Source: Marivita hallyeonensis
GTDB taxonomy: Bacteria > Pseudomonadota > Alphaproteobacteria > Rhodobacterales > Rhodobacteraceae
DNA: 64,000 nt
Direction: 5' to 3'
Assembly (NCBI RefSeq): GCF_900129875.1
Contig: NZ_FQXC01000004.1
Location: forward strand, 186,001-250,000
Part shown: positions 10,823-19,017 of the stretch, piece after piece
Layout of the letters: the number at the start of each line of letters is the position of its first letter
How positions within the stretch are numbered: the first letter of the stretch is position 1
Notes under the pieces: generated by a model
Databases searched by the model: none
Seen by the model: the letters and a program-made list of their open reading frames with translations, nothing else
What the model was told of the DNA's origin: nothing
Made by a program: the position numbers and the translations under genes

Positions 10823-11012
10823 CTACCGAACGAGTGTGTGATTGGCTGTCTGATAGCTCGCGACGGAGTCGGGCAATTCTGAGATCCCAAGGCCCGGCGC
10901 GGCTGAGATCTTCATTACTCCGCGTGTCTCCGTGTCGCCCCAGGGCGCAAAGGCATCACGCAGCGGGTTGGGATTTACGTCCACCTCCAAAAAGCCATCC
11001 CCGCCTGCCGCC
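10823..11012 (-). repeat. copy A of a 190-bp duplicated gene end (racemase-like C-terminus)
   Basis: The last 62 codons plus stop of the intact racemase-like gene. The same stretch is found on the plus strand at 18828-19017, ending at the same TAG. Similarity drops at once beyond the 5' boundary (GGCGGCAGG at 11012) and fades just after the stop. Confidence 0.85.
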
Positions 11013-11965
11013 GCCAGAAGATGGGCCGAGGCGATCAGGCCGATGCCGCCGCCAAGGAAATGTGGGCAAAAGCGCAGCCCGCTCTGGCGGATCGCTTGTG
11101 CGACCTGCCAGCAGCCTGACAGGCCGCCCCATTTTGCGATATCCGGTTGCAGGACGCTGAAGACGTCTGAGCCAATCGCGTCGCTGAACCCGCCAAGGCC
11201 GGTAATGTTCTCGCCCCCGGCCAAAGGCACATGTGCTGCCTTACGCAACGCCTGCCAGTCGGGCAGAGGCGCGTCCGCGGGTAATGGCTCTTCCAGCCAG
11301 CCAAGGGGCAAGTCGGTGGTCCGGTCGAGAAAGTCTTTCGCCGCGCTGAAATCCCACGCCTGATTGGCGTCGGCACAAAGCGTGTCGCCCTCCTTCAGAC
11401 CGTCAAACGCTGCGCTTAGCAGGGCGACATCGCGGTCCGCGTCGAACCCGACCTTCACCTTGAAGGCCGAAAACCCGGCGGCGCGGCTTGCCGGGATTTC
11501 CGTTGCGGCCTGCGCGATGGCGATGCCGCTGGCGTAGCAGGGCACCTCGGGCGCGGCGTCCGGGTTCAGGAACCGGGCGACCGACACGTCGGCACGACGG
11601 GCCAGCAGATCGACATAGGCCGTATCCAGCCCCGCGATCACCTGTCGGAACGGCCCCCATTCCCCGCATTGCAGCGCGCGGATATGGGTCTTCCGGGTGA
11701 GCGTGTCGAAGAGGCCCGTCAGACCATTGAAGCTCTGACTGATCAGCAGGTCGGCAAAGTCCTCTGCCACCAGCCGCGCGCGGTGTTCGGCTCCGGCGGC
11801 GGGCCAGTTGGCGAAGATCTCACCAAAGCCGAACGCGCCGTCGCTGTCCTCCAAACGCACGAACACTGCAGGGCGGTTGGTCATCACGCCAAAGGACGTG
11901 GCTACTGGCGTGTCGATGGGAGCGCGATAGGCCGAGACGTCGATGCGGGTCAGAGTGATAGGCAT
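10823..11965 (-). CDS. mandelate racemase/muconate lactonizing enzyme family protein
   Basis: A 380-residue enolase-superfamily enzyme. The capping domain spans about 1-120 and the barrel carries the full mandelate-racemase-type set: KVK with Lys169 and Lys171, Asp199 (DANQAW), Glu225 (LEEPL), Glu252 (GGEN), Asp275 (QPD) with Lys278 in the same strand, and His302 (CPHFLGGG). This supports a Mg-dependent acid-sugar dehydratase or racemase acting by proton abstraction alpha to a carboxylate; the substrate is open. The last 190 bp (10823-11012) recur, with about 15 differences by eye, at 18828-19017 in a broken locus. Confidence 0.87.
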   Translation of the reverse strand: MPITLTRIDVSAYRAPIDTPVATSFGVMTNRPAVFVRLEDSDGAFGFGEIFANWPAAGAEHRARLVAEDFADLLISQSFNGLTGLFDTLTRKTHIRALQCGEWGPFRQVIAGLDTAYVDLLARRADVSVARFLNPDAAPEVPCYASGIAIAQAATEIPASRAAGFSAFKVKVGFDADRDVALLSAAFDGLKEGDTLCADANQAWDFSAAKDFLDRTTDLPLGWLEEPLPADAPLPDWQALRKAAHVPLAGGENITGLGGFSDAIGSDVFSVLQPDIAKWGGLSGCWQVAQAIRQSGLRFCPHFLGGGIGLIASAHLLAAAGGDGFLEVDVNPNPLRDAFAPWGDTETRGVMKISAAPGLGISELPDSVASYQTANHTLVR

Positions 11966-14037: not shown

Positions 14038-14569
14038 GGTGAGTCCCCCTGTTGGAATAGAACAAGGGTACTGCCGAATAGTCTCGGTCACATAGCAATT
14101 TCATCACGCTGGCATGAAACCGCGCTGCTCGATGCGTTGGGGCTGAAAAATCGTGCCGCTGTTTTTTGGGCAAGAGCCTGGACCTTGCGCGGCCTGAAGT
14201 CCTTGGGTCTTCGCCCGTGAACAATATTAACTGGTCCAGAGGACCGGAAAAGCAGGTGACGTCACCTCAGTTGAGTGGACATCCTCTCCCCTATGCAGAA
14301 CCGACAAAGCGGCTCCGAACCTGTGCCCCTGACGAGGCCTATGAAACGCGTCTCTCATGGTCTGAACGCACCATGCGTCCGCAGAGAGAGGGTGGTCACT
14401 TGGGGTGCTCCATCGACAGACGAAACGGGTATCGGATCCAATGCGGCGGAGTATTGGACCGAATGGTTATCGTGGAAGAAACACGGCGTGCGGTCTTCGA
14501 AAAATTGCGCATGCCCTTGATGTTTTCTTGAGAGCTTAAGACAGCCGAAACAAGCCACCTGACAATGGG
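14038..14569. other. 532-bp stretch without a recognisable gene
   Basis: No open frame here shows a ribosome binding site, conserved motif or codon bias like the neighbours. A perfect 14-bp palindrome, AGGTGACGTCACCT, lies at 14254-14267, and a smaller inverted repeat GGTCC/GGACC lies near 14233-14245. The cpdB promoter must be at its left end. The remainder could be a decayed gene or an unrecognised RNA; I see nothing that proves either. Confidence 0.5.
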
Positions 14570-15576
14570 TCAACGGCGCAACAACACCTCGACTCGTCTG
14601 TTTTTTTGGCGCCCGATAGGGTTGTCGCGGCCCTCTGGGGTCACGTTTGGCGCGACTGGGGCGCCTTCACCAAGGCTTTCTGTCTTTAGCCGTCCGTCGT
14701 CTATCCCAAACCGTTGCGTCAAAGCCTGCGCCACCGCATCCGCACGGCGTTGACCAAGCTGGAGGTTGTAGCTTTCATCGCCTTTGGAATCCGTGTGCCC
14801 CCGAATAAGAATGTCCGCCGGTTGCTCTTCCATGATTATTTTGGCGAGCACACGCAGGCTCGGTAAGGCCGATGCCCGCAATACGGATTTGTCGAAGTCG
14901 AACAGAATGTCGCCTGGCATCGCCATCAAGAGCCCTTGAGGCGTTTCGGTCAGCGAGAACTGGCTCTCGTCAAGTGTTGCCAGTGTCGTGCCCGACGGCG
15001 CGGCGTCGGATAGAACTATGACGGATTTGGGAACGGGAATCGTCGTTGATGTGGAAGTCGGAACCGGAGTGAAAACACCAGAACTTGTCAGTTTTTTTTT
15101 GACCCTTCGGAAAAGGTGCCTTCGGGGAGAGCGATCGTGATTTCAAACCGAGGTGTGTGCGAGTTTTCGGATGAACTGCCAGCATCATCGTTGAGGACAA
15201 AAGTCACGTTATCAGTCTCTGGCAAGCGCCCCAAGAAAACAAGCTCACCCTCGAGTTTGGTCATCGCTGGAAGCTCAAACCGTTCGTTGTCCTCTGGCGG
15301 TGAGAGGAACAACCGTGTGCCATCTTCACTTGCAATGAAGCTGTCGTTCCTTCTGCTCAGCAAGCGGATTTCGCGTTTGAAGCCGTTGATCACCTGCACA
15401 GAAACCACTGTTTCCGATAGTCCGGCCTGCACGCTGCTGACTTGGAGAATTACTCCATTGGGGTGGGTTTGCTGGAGATCGACAAGGATTGGATTGCCGT
15501 CCGCAGCCAATGTTTGTGCTTGTACCTGTGCGCCTGCAAGGAGTGACAGAACCAGCGGCACAATCAGTTTAAACAT
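14570..15576 (-). pseudogene. OmpA-family protein split by a frameshift in an A9 run (possible programmed frameshift)
   Basis: Two reading frames that belong to one protein. The first (15576 to 15088) encodes 162 residues: a Sec signal peptide (MFKLIVPLVLSLLAGAQVQA) and an unrecognised beta-rich domain, ending TFSEGSKKN then TGA. The stop comes directly after nine A (plus-strand T9, 15092-15100). From that A run, the frame one base back continues without a stop to 14570: a Ser/Thr/Pro linker (TSSGVFTPVPTSTSTT), then a peptidoglycan-binding OmpA domain with DILFDFDKSVL, IRGHTDSKGDESYNLQLGQRRA and NPIGRQKNRRVEVLL. The downstream part has no credible start of its own. Adding one A, or a -1 slip on A-AAA-AAA, restores a roughly 330-residue envelope protein. 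Whether this is a mutation, a sequencing error or programmed slippage is open. Confidence 0.85.
15092..15100 (-). other. A9 homopolymer at the OmpA frame junction
   Basis: Nine T on the plus strand, read as nine A in the transcript. It contains the -1 slippery heptamer A-AAA-AAA in the zero frame (TCA AAA AAA AAC TGA), with the zero-frame stop immediately after. Homopolymers of nine or more A also promote RNA polymerase slippage. Confidence 0.8.
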
Positions 15577-15764
15577 CGGTCGAGCCTTCCCTTGAATCCG
15601 AGGAAAATATTAGGCCAATTCTCAAAATTTCCTAGCTATCGTCTCGCGAAGCAGCGTTTGAAGGCGTTTTTTGGCTCATTGAAGGGGTGCGGCAAGCTCT
15701 GAATAAAAGGGCACTCTGACAATGCGTAATTCGCGACCTTGGCTTCGTCTTCTAGGTGATGAGC

Positions 15765-15802
15765 GGGGAATGCGCCTTGAAAGGCGCTTGCCGCTATTCC
15801 CC
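15765..15802 (-). terminator. nested inverted repeat over the 3' end of the metzincin-like gene
   Basis: Outer arms GGGGAAT (15765-15771) and ATTCCCC (15796-15802) enclose an inner hairpin GCGCCTT-GA-AAGGCGC (15772-15787). The arms overlap the stop codon. No T run follows, so a terminator role is only likely, not shown. Confidence 0.4.
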
Positions 15803-16402
15803 TGACGTCCAGTTCGCGCGGATACGCCGTCCCGTCTCCGGCGTGATCACCAAGGGAGGCATGTGCACGTAACCGTTTTCCGTTTGAACAGACACAACGT
15901 CATCCGCGGCATTCCGTGCGCGAGTGGCGCTGGGATGACCATGGAAAGCAAGACCTCCGTGATCGTCATTGTGAAGGCCACAGCAGTGGATCAATTCGTG
16001 AAACGCGATCACCAACCGCACGGGACGTCCCAAGGCGCGCATCTGGGAATATTGCCCGGGCGTGGATGGAAGAAAGACGTGGGCCATTTCCATGCGGCCA
16101 CCAATCGAAAAAGTCCGCGTGTTGCCAGCGCTTGCATTTCCGCGCAGGTTCACCGTGGTTGTCGTGCCGGCAAAAGAGGTCGACCGCGTGCCGTCGACGT
16201 TCCAAACGATGACGTTGGCCTGGTCCTCTGCGGCCTCGTCGACAAAGCTCACGCCCAGAGTTCCGCGCGTACTTATGCTGTTGAACTCGGTCATCGCGTC
16301 GGCCACGACACTGCGCCAGTCCCCAACAAGTGAATCCGTGCAATGAATTTTCAATCGACCGGACGCACGAACAGTGTCTTTCCAAGGTGTAGGCATCGGC
16401 AT
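15794..16402 (-). CDS. metzincin-like zinc metalloprotease
   Basis: A 202-residue protein with a complete metzincin zinc signature, HELIHCCGLH (His135, Glu136, His139, Gly142, His144), within FHELIHCCGLHNDDHGG. A Met-containing turn, HMPPL with Met181, follows about 37 residues later, as expected for the Met-turn. The segment before it (SVVADAMTEFNSIS, then strands) resembles the N-terminal half of a matrixin/astacin-type catalytic core. No signal peptide or pro-domain is visible, which is odd for this clan. The ATG at 16402 (MPMPTPWKDT) was chosen over an upstream TTG. The gene is alone between the broken OmpA gene and rplI. Confidence 0.72.
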   Translation of the reverse strand: MPMPTPWKDTVRASGRLKIHCTDSLVGDWRSVVADAMTEFNSISTRGTLGVSFVDEAAEDQANVIVWNVDGTRSTSFAGTTTTVNLRGNASAGNTRTFSIGGRMEMAHVFLPSTPGQYSQMRALGRPVRLVIAFHELIHCCGLHNDDHGGLAFHGHPSATRARNAADDVVSVQTENGYVHMPPLVITPETGRRIRANWTSGE

Positions 16403-16490
16403 AACCCCCTGCGCGGCGCAGAGACGAGCATACCACAAGTTTGGGCTTTCAGGTAATCGACGTGAACAGACGCGCCCGCGTGTTGAAACA

Positions 16491-16523
16491 AAAAAACGCC
16501 CCGCCGAGGGGGGCGGGGCGTTG
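16491..16523 (-). terminator. terminator of the rpsF-rpsR-rplI operon
   Basis: AACGCCCCGCC (16496-16506) pairs with GGCGGGGCGTT (16513-16523) around a short loop; on the minus strand the stem is followed by a run of seven T (A7 at 16491-16497). It lies 22 bp after the rplI stop. Confidence 0.92.
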
Positions 16524-16545
16524 TATGTTTCGAAAGGAGGCGCGA

Positions 16546-18028: not shown

Positions 18029-18827
18029 TTAAGCGTAAGAAGATAGAACGAAGCGCCGGATTTCGGCGTAAGCCTCGTCAGGTTTGTCAGCGATCACACC
18101 ATGACCGCATTTTGAATACTTGACGTATGTCAAGTTGTCCCGCGAAAGACCCGCCGCGATTTCTTCACTGAAGACGGGCGGAGTGATGGGATCTTCGTCA
18201 CCCACAAGCAACAGCGTCGAGCACTCAATCCGGCGGGGGTCCGATCGAAAGTCCATGCGCCCATGTTCATTTTTGGGCCCTTTGAACCAAAGCGCAGTTT
18301 CGTTTCGCCAAAGAATGCGGGTTTGCCAGTCAGACGAAACAGACTGATCATAATTGTAGAGTGGCACACAGCGATCACGGTAGAGGGCCCTACCCTCGGT
18401 TGTCGGGGCTTCCCAATAGGCTTTCGCTATATCGCGCATTTCGCTACCGCCGAGGCGCTGGAAGGCTTGGTACACGCTTTCGAATTCAACTTTCGCCGCA
18501 GTGCTGATGAGGACCAGTCCTGCAGCGTTTCTACGATACCGCGTAGCATAGGAAAGGGTTACAAATCCGCCGAAGGAAGTGCCAATAACGATAGGTTTCT
18601 CGATGCCAAGCTCATCACAGAGACCTTTGAGATCATCACCCCAATGCGCAAGATTCTAGGTCGACTCATCGCATAACTGGCTGCGTCCATTTCCCCGGTG
18701 GTCATTGTAAATGACCTGAGCAACATCAGTAAGCTGCGAAAAATCGGACTTGGATACAGTGTGATCAGCACCAGGGCCTCCATGAACCATGATCACAGTT
18801 GGCTTCTGACGCATCGACGGGCTATCA
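18029..18827 (-). pseudogene. alpha/beta hydrolase (proline iminopeptidase-like), nonsense-mutated and 5'-truncated
   Basis: The frame reads through all hydrolase landmarks: oxyanion HGGPG near 18788, DHRGNGRS, nucleophile elbow GTSFGG, acid VGDEDPITPP and catalytic His in KCGHG, ending VLSSYA. It is interrupted by an in-frame TAG at 18656-18658, in the context DEST*NLAHWGDDL, where relatives usually have Trp (one-base TGG to TAG change). The 5' end is also lost: about 13 codons before HGGPG the sequence changes at 18827/18828 into the antisense of a racemase-like fragment, with no start codon in a suitable place apart from a Met (MRQKPTVIMVHG). Downstream of the stop, a GTG-initiated 148-residue frame (18475-18029) would lack the nucleophile. 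Family relatives cleave N-terminal proline or other small esters/amides. Confidence 0.88.
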
Positions 18828-19017
18828 GGCGGCAGGCGGGGATGGGCTCTTGGAGGTTGACATCAATCCGAACCCTCTGCGGGATGCCTTTGCGCCATGG
18901 GGCAACACGGAGACACGCGGAGAAATGAAGATCTCAGCCGCGCCGGGCCTTGGGATCTCAGAATTGCCCGACGCCATCGCGAGCTATCAGACAGCCAACC
19001 ACACACTCGTTCGGTAG
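18828..19017 (+). pseudogene. copy B: orphan C-terminal fragment of a racemase-like gene
   Basis: Encodes about 62 residues (from AAGGDGLLEVDI to SYQTANHTLVR, then TAG) nearly identical to the C-terminus of the intact racemase-like protein at 10823-11965 (residues 319-380). By eye about 15 of 190 bases differ but only about six residues, so most changes are silent. The barrel and all catalytic residues are missing, so it cannot be an enzyme. It abuts the broken hydrolase head-on. Confidence 0.9.

Follow-up and report, generated by a model that had tools for sequence, protein, structure and literature searches.

The gene considered here lies on the reverse strand of a 64,000-nucleotide stretch of the Marivita hallyeonensis genome (the window) and is divided between two reading frames. 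The first part, a zero-frame ORF encoding 162 aa (15088..15576, -), starts with an ATG found 8 nt after a Shine-Dalgarno-like AAGGGAAGG recognized by eye (15585..15593, -), and its translation comprises a signal-peptide-like N-terminus of about 20 aa (15517..15576, -; extent estimated), devoid of a lipobox cysteine, and a domain predicted to be rich in beta structure (the beta domain), which matches the model built from six such sequences, the window's own among them, with an E value of 9e-58. The ORF closes with GAA GGG TCA AAA AAA AAC TGA, giving a short product that ends in GSKKN*. Its nine A (15092-15100, -) are preceded by TC (TC-A9, 15092..15102, -, in the register TCA AAA AAA AA.), and the zero frame holds both A_AAA_AAA and A_AAA_AAC. 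The initial annotation had correctly counted the nine A but had placed the TGA (15088..15090, -) directly after them, where a C intervenes (AAC TGA); the resulting CTGA stands where relatives with two genes have ATGA or GTGA. Its description of the second part was accurate: from the run, the -1 frame continues for 173 codons and a stop (14570..15091, -) through a linker rich in Ser, Thr, and Pro into a complete OmpA-like peptidoglycan-binding domain (PF00691; 14624..14905, -), matched with an E value of 4.1e-20 and 72.4 bits, above the Pfam cut-off of 27.2. This frame stays open down to position 14570 but begins only 51 nt before the run ends. It has no start of its own and no signal peptide; the earliest ATG, GTG, or TTG, 162 nt past the run, already borders on the OmpA domain.

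The A9 is the only A/T run of at least nine in the 64-kb window. Shuffling the window gave a mean of 0.19 such runs, with 13 of 100 shuffles containing one or more, so that relatives are needed to settle the question: the presence of the run is by itself unremarkable, and it is its position and conservation that are remarkable. The beta domain is rare. Among the 17 genomes searched in the genus, it occurs only in that of the window and in none of the 16 congeners. It was found in one of 394 genomes sampled from the family (after removal of a weak match, L010, with E 0.005, whose open frame corresponds by eye to a longer protein of a different kind), one of 390 from the order, three of 385 from the class, and five of 299 from the phylum, these samples overlapping and being searched with different queries. 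A protein search of plasmids matched five of 72,556 records. With one of the class matches, L018, as seed, we retrieved matches in 13 of 298 genomes of its family, 14 of 151 of its genus, and two of 11 and one of one in two further genera; the family and the first of these genera each include L031 (E 5e-4), later dropped as it does not match the beta model. The L018 protein also matched two plasmid records, both already known, and none among the phage records searched. A scan of named genomes led to Sphingomonas baiyangensis (L037) and S. spermidinifaciens (L038), which have the same sequence as L039 and L040, from the genus of L018, over 1,300 bases around the site. After removal of duplicates, 33 beta-domain loci remained.

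These loci show four layouts. Seven of them (the window, or WIN, and L018, L020, L021, L037, L038, and L041) share the split gene described above, hereafter the slippage layout; according to their taxon codes they represent four genera and two families, and the window beta domain is 32–41% identical to those of the other six species. Ten loci (L022-L026 and L042-L046) have a tandem arrangement, with a short beta gene and then a second gene with its own beta domain, which in nine of the ten (all except L046, without OmpA) continues through a linker into OmpA in one frame. At an E value of 0.001 or below, each of the seven slippage genomes has one beta-domain match and each of the ten tandem genomes has two. 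Another 14 loci (L012-L015, L017, L027, L029, L047-L051, L083, and L084) combine a beta gene with an OmpA gene endowed with its own N-terminus, and at the remaining two (L011 and L030) a beta gene was found without an adjoining OmpA gene. With L011, L030, and L046 excluded from the OmpA counts, 30 loci have an OmpA partner, and at each of them the second frame lies at -1 with respect to the first. Where the two genes are separate (23 loci), the stop of the first always shares bases with a start codon, as (A/G/T)TGA in 22 and as TGATG in L083, and these overlapping codons presumably serve as starts.

The initial annotation had proposed to compare the run length and the split among relatives. 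At all seven slippage loci the run consists of exactly nine A preceded by TC, in the register TCA AAA AAA AA(C/G), with OmpA in the -1 frame; no run of at least seven A occurs between beta and OmpA at any of the 23 loci whose OmpA-bearing gene has its own start. Elsewhere in the six GC-rich slippage genes (63–67% G+C), TCA accounts for only one of 155 serine codons and AAA for ten of 88 lysine codons, a usage from which TCA-AAA-AAA would be expected about 8e-5 times per gene, or approximately once in 12,000 such genes, although the seven slippage species are related and do not amount to independent trials. In 98,231 bases from 24 loci, the six slip sites are the only A/T runs of at least nine, and synonymous change between slippage species is strong elsewhere in the beta part (pS 0.43–0.83). 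In L041, a stop closes the -1 frame 18 nt ahead of the point where the run ends, and the next start in this frame comes 162 nt past the run, so that the frame has to be entered at the run or very near it. Selection on the -1 frame points in the same direction: the OmpA part has dN/dS values of 0.16–0.39 (21 pairs) and the beta part 0.16–0.89 (19 of 21 pairs, two saturated ones left out), rough figures given that many pairs are near saturation, which indicate that purifying selection acts on the OmpA part and that the -1 frame is a real coding frame. The linker directly after the run yields 0.39–1.14 (21 pairs), with values above 1 only for L020-L018 and L020-L037, and this weak constraint adds little either way. 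The zero-frame tail varies between slippage species, and the comparison thus does not show selection on the extreme end of the short form.

The recurrence of the A9 and of the split in seven species supports the suggestion made at the outset that the gene undergoes programmed -1 frameshifting or polymerase slippage, and it weighs on three other explanations. The one offered initially as the alternative, a one-base deletion or a sequencing or assembly error in a normally single-frame gene, draws some credit from the error-prone nature of homopolymers and from the window gene having no close relative for comparison, but it would have to account for the same A9 and the same split in seven distinct species, none of them with ten A, and for purifying selection on OmpA in the -1 frame; in addition, two of these species are identical over 1,300 bases in two collections (possibly the same assemblies). 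The relatives are also far from all having one continuous frame, the situation that the initial annotation had associated with a mutation or an error: the long in-frame genes of the nine tandem relatives, which lack this run, each adjoin a separate short gene, and another 14 loci have two separate genes. We regard a deletion or an error as very improbable. An equally slim chance is left to phase variation, in which replication slippage would alter the run length and switch the long form on and off. An A9 in the gene of an exported protein could act as a contingency tract, but free variation should have produced 8, 10, or 11 A somewhere, and the length variation that characterizes contingency loci is not seen between the species, all seven having nine (one sequence per species). 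The least probable of all is that two independent proteins are made, with ribosomes that end the first ORF restarting on the OmpA ORF by means of the CTGA overlap. The separate-gene relatives do carry, likewise in the -1 frame, a start that overlaps the end of the first gene ((A/G/T)TGA, or TGATG in L083), and CTGA is kept in WIN, L020, and L021; however, the slippage loci have lost this start, three of the seven having CTG at that position, one CTT, and three GTC. In four of the seven the zero-frame stop is found at another place, and the OmpA part made in this way would be devoid of a signal peptide.

The reading that we favour is a single gene with a programmed slip at the conserved A9. Judged from the genome comparison, programmed slippage of either kind, by the polymerase or by the ribosome, is very likely, and it is probable that RNA polymerase is responsible, by adding one A and producing an mRNA with ten A. 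The second possible route would be a ribosomal -1 slip at A_AAA_AAA or A_AAA_AA(C/G). The addition of an A and the -1 ribosomal slip would both lead to the identical peptide ...GSKKK-LTSS..., and the protein therefore cannot tell them apart. The mRNA without a slip would encode a short exported beta-domain protein, and the slipped mRNA a protein with the beta domain, the linker, and the OmpA domain, able to hold the beta domain to peptidoglycan. That slipping takes place in the cell, the step at which it does so, and its frequency are what we infer from the nucleotide sequences.

Between the two routes, we consider polymerase slipping about twice as probable as ribosomal slipping. Genes with programmed transcriptional slippage typically contain an unbroken A/T run of about nine or more within the coding sequence, and the seven loci each have exactly A9, with the run and the -1 frame conserved and selection acting on OmpA. 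Programmed -1 ribosomal frameshifting on an mRNA with nine A, comparable to that of Escherichia coli dnaX or IS elements, is rather unlikely. In its favour, the A_AAA_AAA that the initial annotation had noticed in the window is in the zero frame of all seven species, along with A_AAA_AAC in four and A_AAA_AAG in three, and the X_XXY_YYZ heptamer typical of -1 frameshifting is thus in the zero frame at every locus. According to the available portion of PMC4066793, A_AAA_AAG ranks with the most efficient motifs of E. coli and A_AAA_AAC is inefficient there; poor as the latter is, bacterial IS elements very likely make use of it, with one proven case in which no stimulator has been established. 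The slippage loci offer partial candidates for a stimulator: an SD-like tetramer lies within 25 nt upstream of the site in four of the seven (L018, L037, and L038 have none), and the same GAGG occurs 24 nt upstream in L020, L021, and L041, the last of which has an additional GGAG at 14 nt upstream. The usual stimulators lie nearer than 24 nt upstream. A search limited to SD-like elements and to structures other than pseudoknots revealed no stimulator shared by all seven loci, and downstream structure does not stand out, with z values from -2.4 to +2.2 for 28 folded stretches, only one of them below -2 (L037), and no common structure visible by eye. Ribosomal slipping also leaves part of the conservation unexplained: all nine A are kept, where A_AAA_AAA needs two fewer and A_AAA_AA(C/G) three fewer. 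A_AAA_AAA alone would explain the TCA and both AAA codons, and, this heptamer being present in all seven species, what is left in favour of the polymerase is the final two A, the AAC codon, and the missing stimulator. The full A9, the AAC heptamer in four of the seven species, and the lack of a common stimulator make polymerase slipping somewhat better supported. In a large share of bacterial genomes A/T runs are avoided from length nine, and the A9 of Thermus thermophilus dnaX gives approximately 50% slipped product (as stated in the accessible part of PMC1088944).

The tandem relatives provide counterparts for both putative products of the slipping gene. The protein expected from slipping, composed of the beta domain, GSKKK, the linker, and OmpA, can be aligned through the linker with the nine in-frame long proteins of the tandem loci, with short gaps located near the slip site, as exemplified by ...DGSKKKVSSL...GTGSSFG...TELNATQTDRGTLVSLPGDVLFDFDKA in L018 and ...RGGSVPEVSAL...EGGSSFG...SELGAVDSERGTVVSLAGDVTFDFDKA in L024. 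The simplest reading is that one slippage gene makes the short and the long forms that tandem genomes encode separately. The structure predicted for the L024 long protein consists of two ordered domains with a low-confidence stretch between them, the confidence of the whole model being modest (mean pLDDT 73, pTM 0.44). For the window, the initial idea of a short secreted domain and a peptidoglycan-tethered form holds well, but in the six other slippage species the short form carries a cysteine in a lipobox-like motif, and it would accordingly be a lipoprotein there. The long form would then be held to peptidoglycan and the short form be free in the periplasm (window) or lipid-anchored (the six others), where it presumably has a role of its own.

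The beta domain is predicted, with good confidence, to form a beta sandwich (mean pLDDT 83), and Foldseek matched it to YcdA (4r4g, E 3e-4), MPT63 (1lmi, E 6e-4), and YjhA (3cfu, E 3e-3), with TM scores of 0.26–0.58. Adaptin-appendage domains and a Listeria protein score similarly, and the resemblance is thus one of a broad fold. YjhA and YcdA bear DUF4352/Ig-like domains. At the sequence level, the beta domain of the window protein has no Pfam match, DUF4352 (PF11611) does not match this protein at an E value of 1, and none of 17 members reaches the cut-off of the DUF4352 profile (best E 0.032; weak matches in three of the 17). The beta domain therefore appears DUF4352-like in its predicted fold but stays below the family threshold in sequence. 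It differs in this respect from the secreted Ig-like proteins of the DUF4352/YcdA/YjhA/MPT63 type, which are its best or near-best predicted-fold matches and have no significant sequence match to it. A search of solved structures by sequence gave a single match (E 0.81), which we took as chance. The long form resembles OmpA-family lipoproteins of the Pal/YiaD type in its C-terminal PF00691 on an exported protein, but its N-terminal beta domain sets it apart from them, as does the fact that slipping is the only way to reach its OmpA domain. The OmpA part alone scores below both NCBIfam equivalog cut-offs, with 109 bits against 175 for YiaD and 71 against 125 for Pal.

To our knowledge, few bacterial recoding genes outside mobile elements have a clear purpose. 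Here, the split is kept over deep divergence and the two genes of related genomes probably show both products, and the purpose of the recoding site can thereby be read from genomes. In automatic annotation, genes of this kind may well be called pseudogenes or truncated, and their OmpA half be overlooked. The seven loci could also serve as a natural system in which to set RNA polymerase against ribosome slipping on an A9 in high-GC alphaproteobacteria. Known examples show likenesses and differences. In T. thermophilus dnaX, where the A9 is a site of RNA polymerase slippage, a sense-strand A9 in a non-mobile cellular gene likewise gives two length variants from one gene, but its unslipped frame encodes the long protein, whereas that of the window gene encodes the short one (PMC1088944, available part), and the protein and pathway are different. 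Shigella mxiE, with a run of U (same part of PMC1088944), and Citrobacter rodentium tssM1, with an A11 (PMC4256274, in the portion available), are two-ORF genes whose long form is also made through slipping. Both forms of tssM1 are reported to be needed, and in tssM genes runs are not common, in contrast with the exactly nine A found here in seven species of four genera (PMC4256274, same portion). GeneTack has predicted 146 clusters of bacterial recoding genes (cited in PMC4066793, available portion). Our text search of the literature, covering titles and the beginnings of abstracts, returned no OmpA-family gene with slippage or frameshifting, and a listing in a supplement or a GeneTack table is possible. 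In PMC3711429 the letters 'ompa' turn up three times, each time within a longer word (comparative, compatible, comparison). Within 300,000 of the 475,107 characters of PMC5009743, the 12 inspected of 39 'ompa' places all belong to longer words, and 'outer membrane' and 'sphingo' do not occur, and the available part of PMC1088944 mentions neither OmpA nor outer membrane. Programmed A9 slippage is already known in bacteria, and the OmpA-family gene looks like a new, well-conserved case.

The window gene is the only case in its genus and in the sampled family, and it sits on a long branch. Congener G009 (L073) has a 5'-nucleotidase that is 90% identical to that of the window, with its neighbour gene at 0.25 kb and no beta-OmpA gene between them. 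Eight other congeners can be read from the 5'-nucleotidase to rplI and show different spacing, another (L077) ends at a contig end, and tblastn (E 1e-5) with either half of the gene found no match in the ten congener loci. As the congeners lack the gene at what is a variable spot, the window copy is most simply read as a horizontal arrival there, bringing its own slip site; it could be a recent arrival, and its expression is putative. Concerning the older history, approximately unbiased (AU) tests reject neither the slippage genes as one clade (p 0.51 for OmpA, 0.30 for the beta domain) nor, for the beta domain, a clade formed by the two tandem beta groups (p 0.36) or by the slippage genes and the tandem short ones (p 0.28), and the trees thus do not decide between slippage first and tandem first. 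We tentatively entertain the possibility that a short beta protein and a long tethered copy have been reached in two interchangeable ways, A9 slippage and an overlapping tandem operon, the slippage gene being ancestral and a duplication having later split the products and replaced recoding.

Several other features were observed around these loci. The interval between the 5'-nucleotidase and rplI in the window (approximately 14040-16545) varies widely, nine congeners holding between about 0.14 kb (L079) and about 4 kb there. It includes an ORF (15794-16438, -) with a HELIHCCGLHND motif, which we take to be metzincin-like, and without a Pfam match; one of the ten congeners (L073) has a homologue, 67% identical, in the same place. 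The second gene of the L046 tandem (2112-2786) continues after its beta domain into a non-OmpA sequence, presumably of EAL type, a junction due to recombination or misassembly. A lipoprotein-like ORF, similar by eye among the three, follows the slippage gene in L018 (127 aa, no Pfam match), L037, and L038. A lysozyme inhibitor, as which the third gene downstream in L018 was considered, is not supported, as no Pfam match was found. At the Rhizobiaceae plasmid loci L013, L014, and L015, a small gene with paired CxxC, zinc-ribbon-like by eye, comes directly after the OmpA gene. Elsewhere in the window, an ORF of 72 aa (18799-19017, +) seems to be a truncated duplicate of the gene at 10823-11965 (-), presumably a member of the enolase superfamily, with whose C-terminus it shares 90% identity over its last 62 aa.
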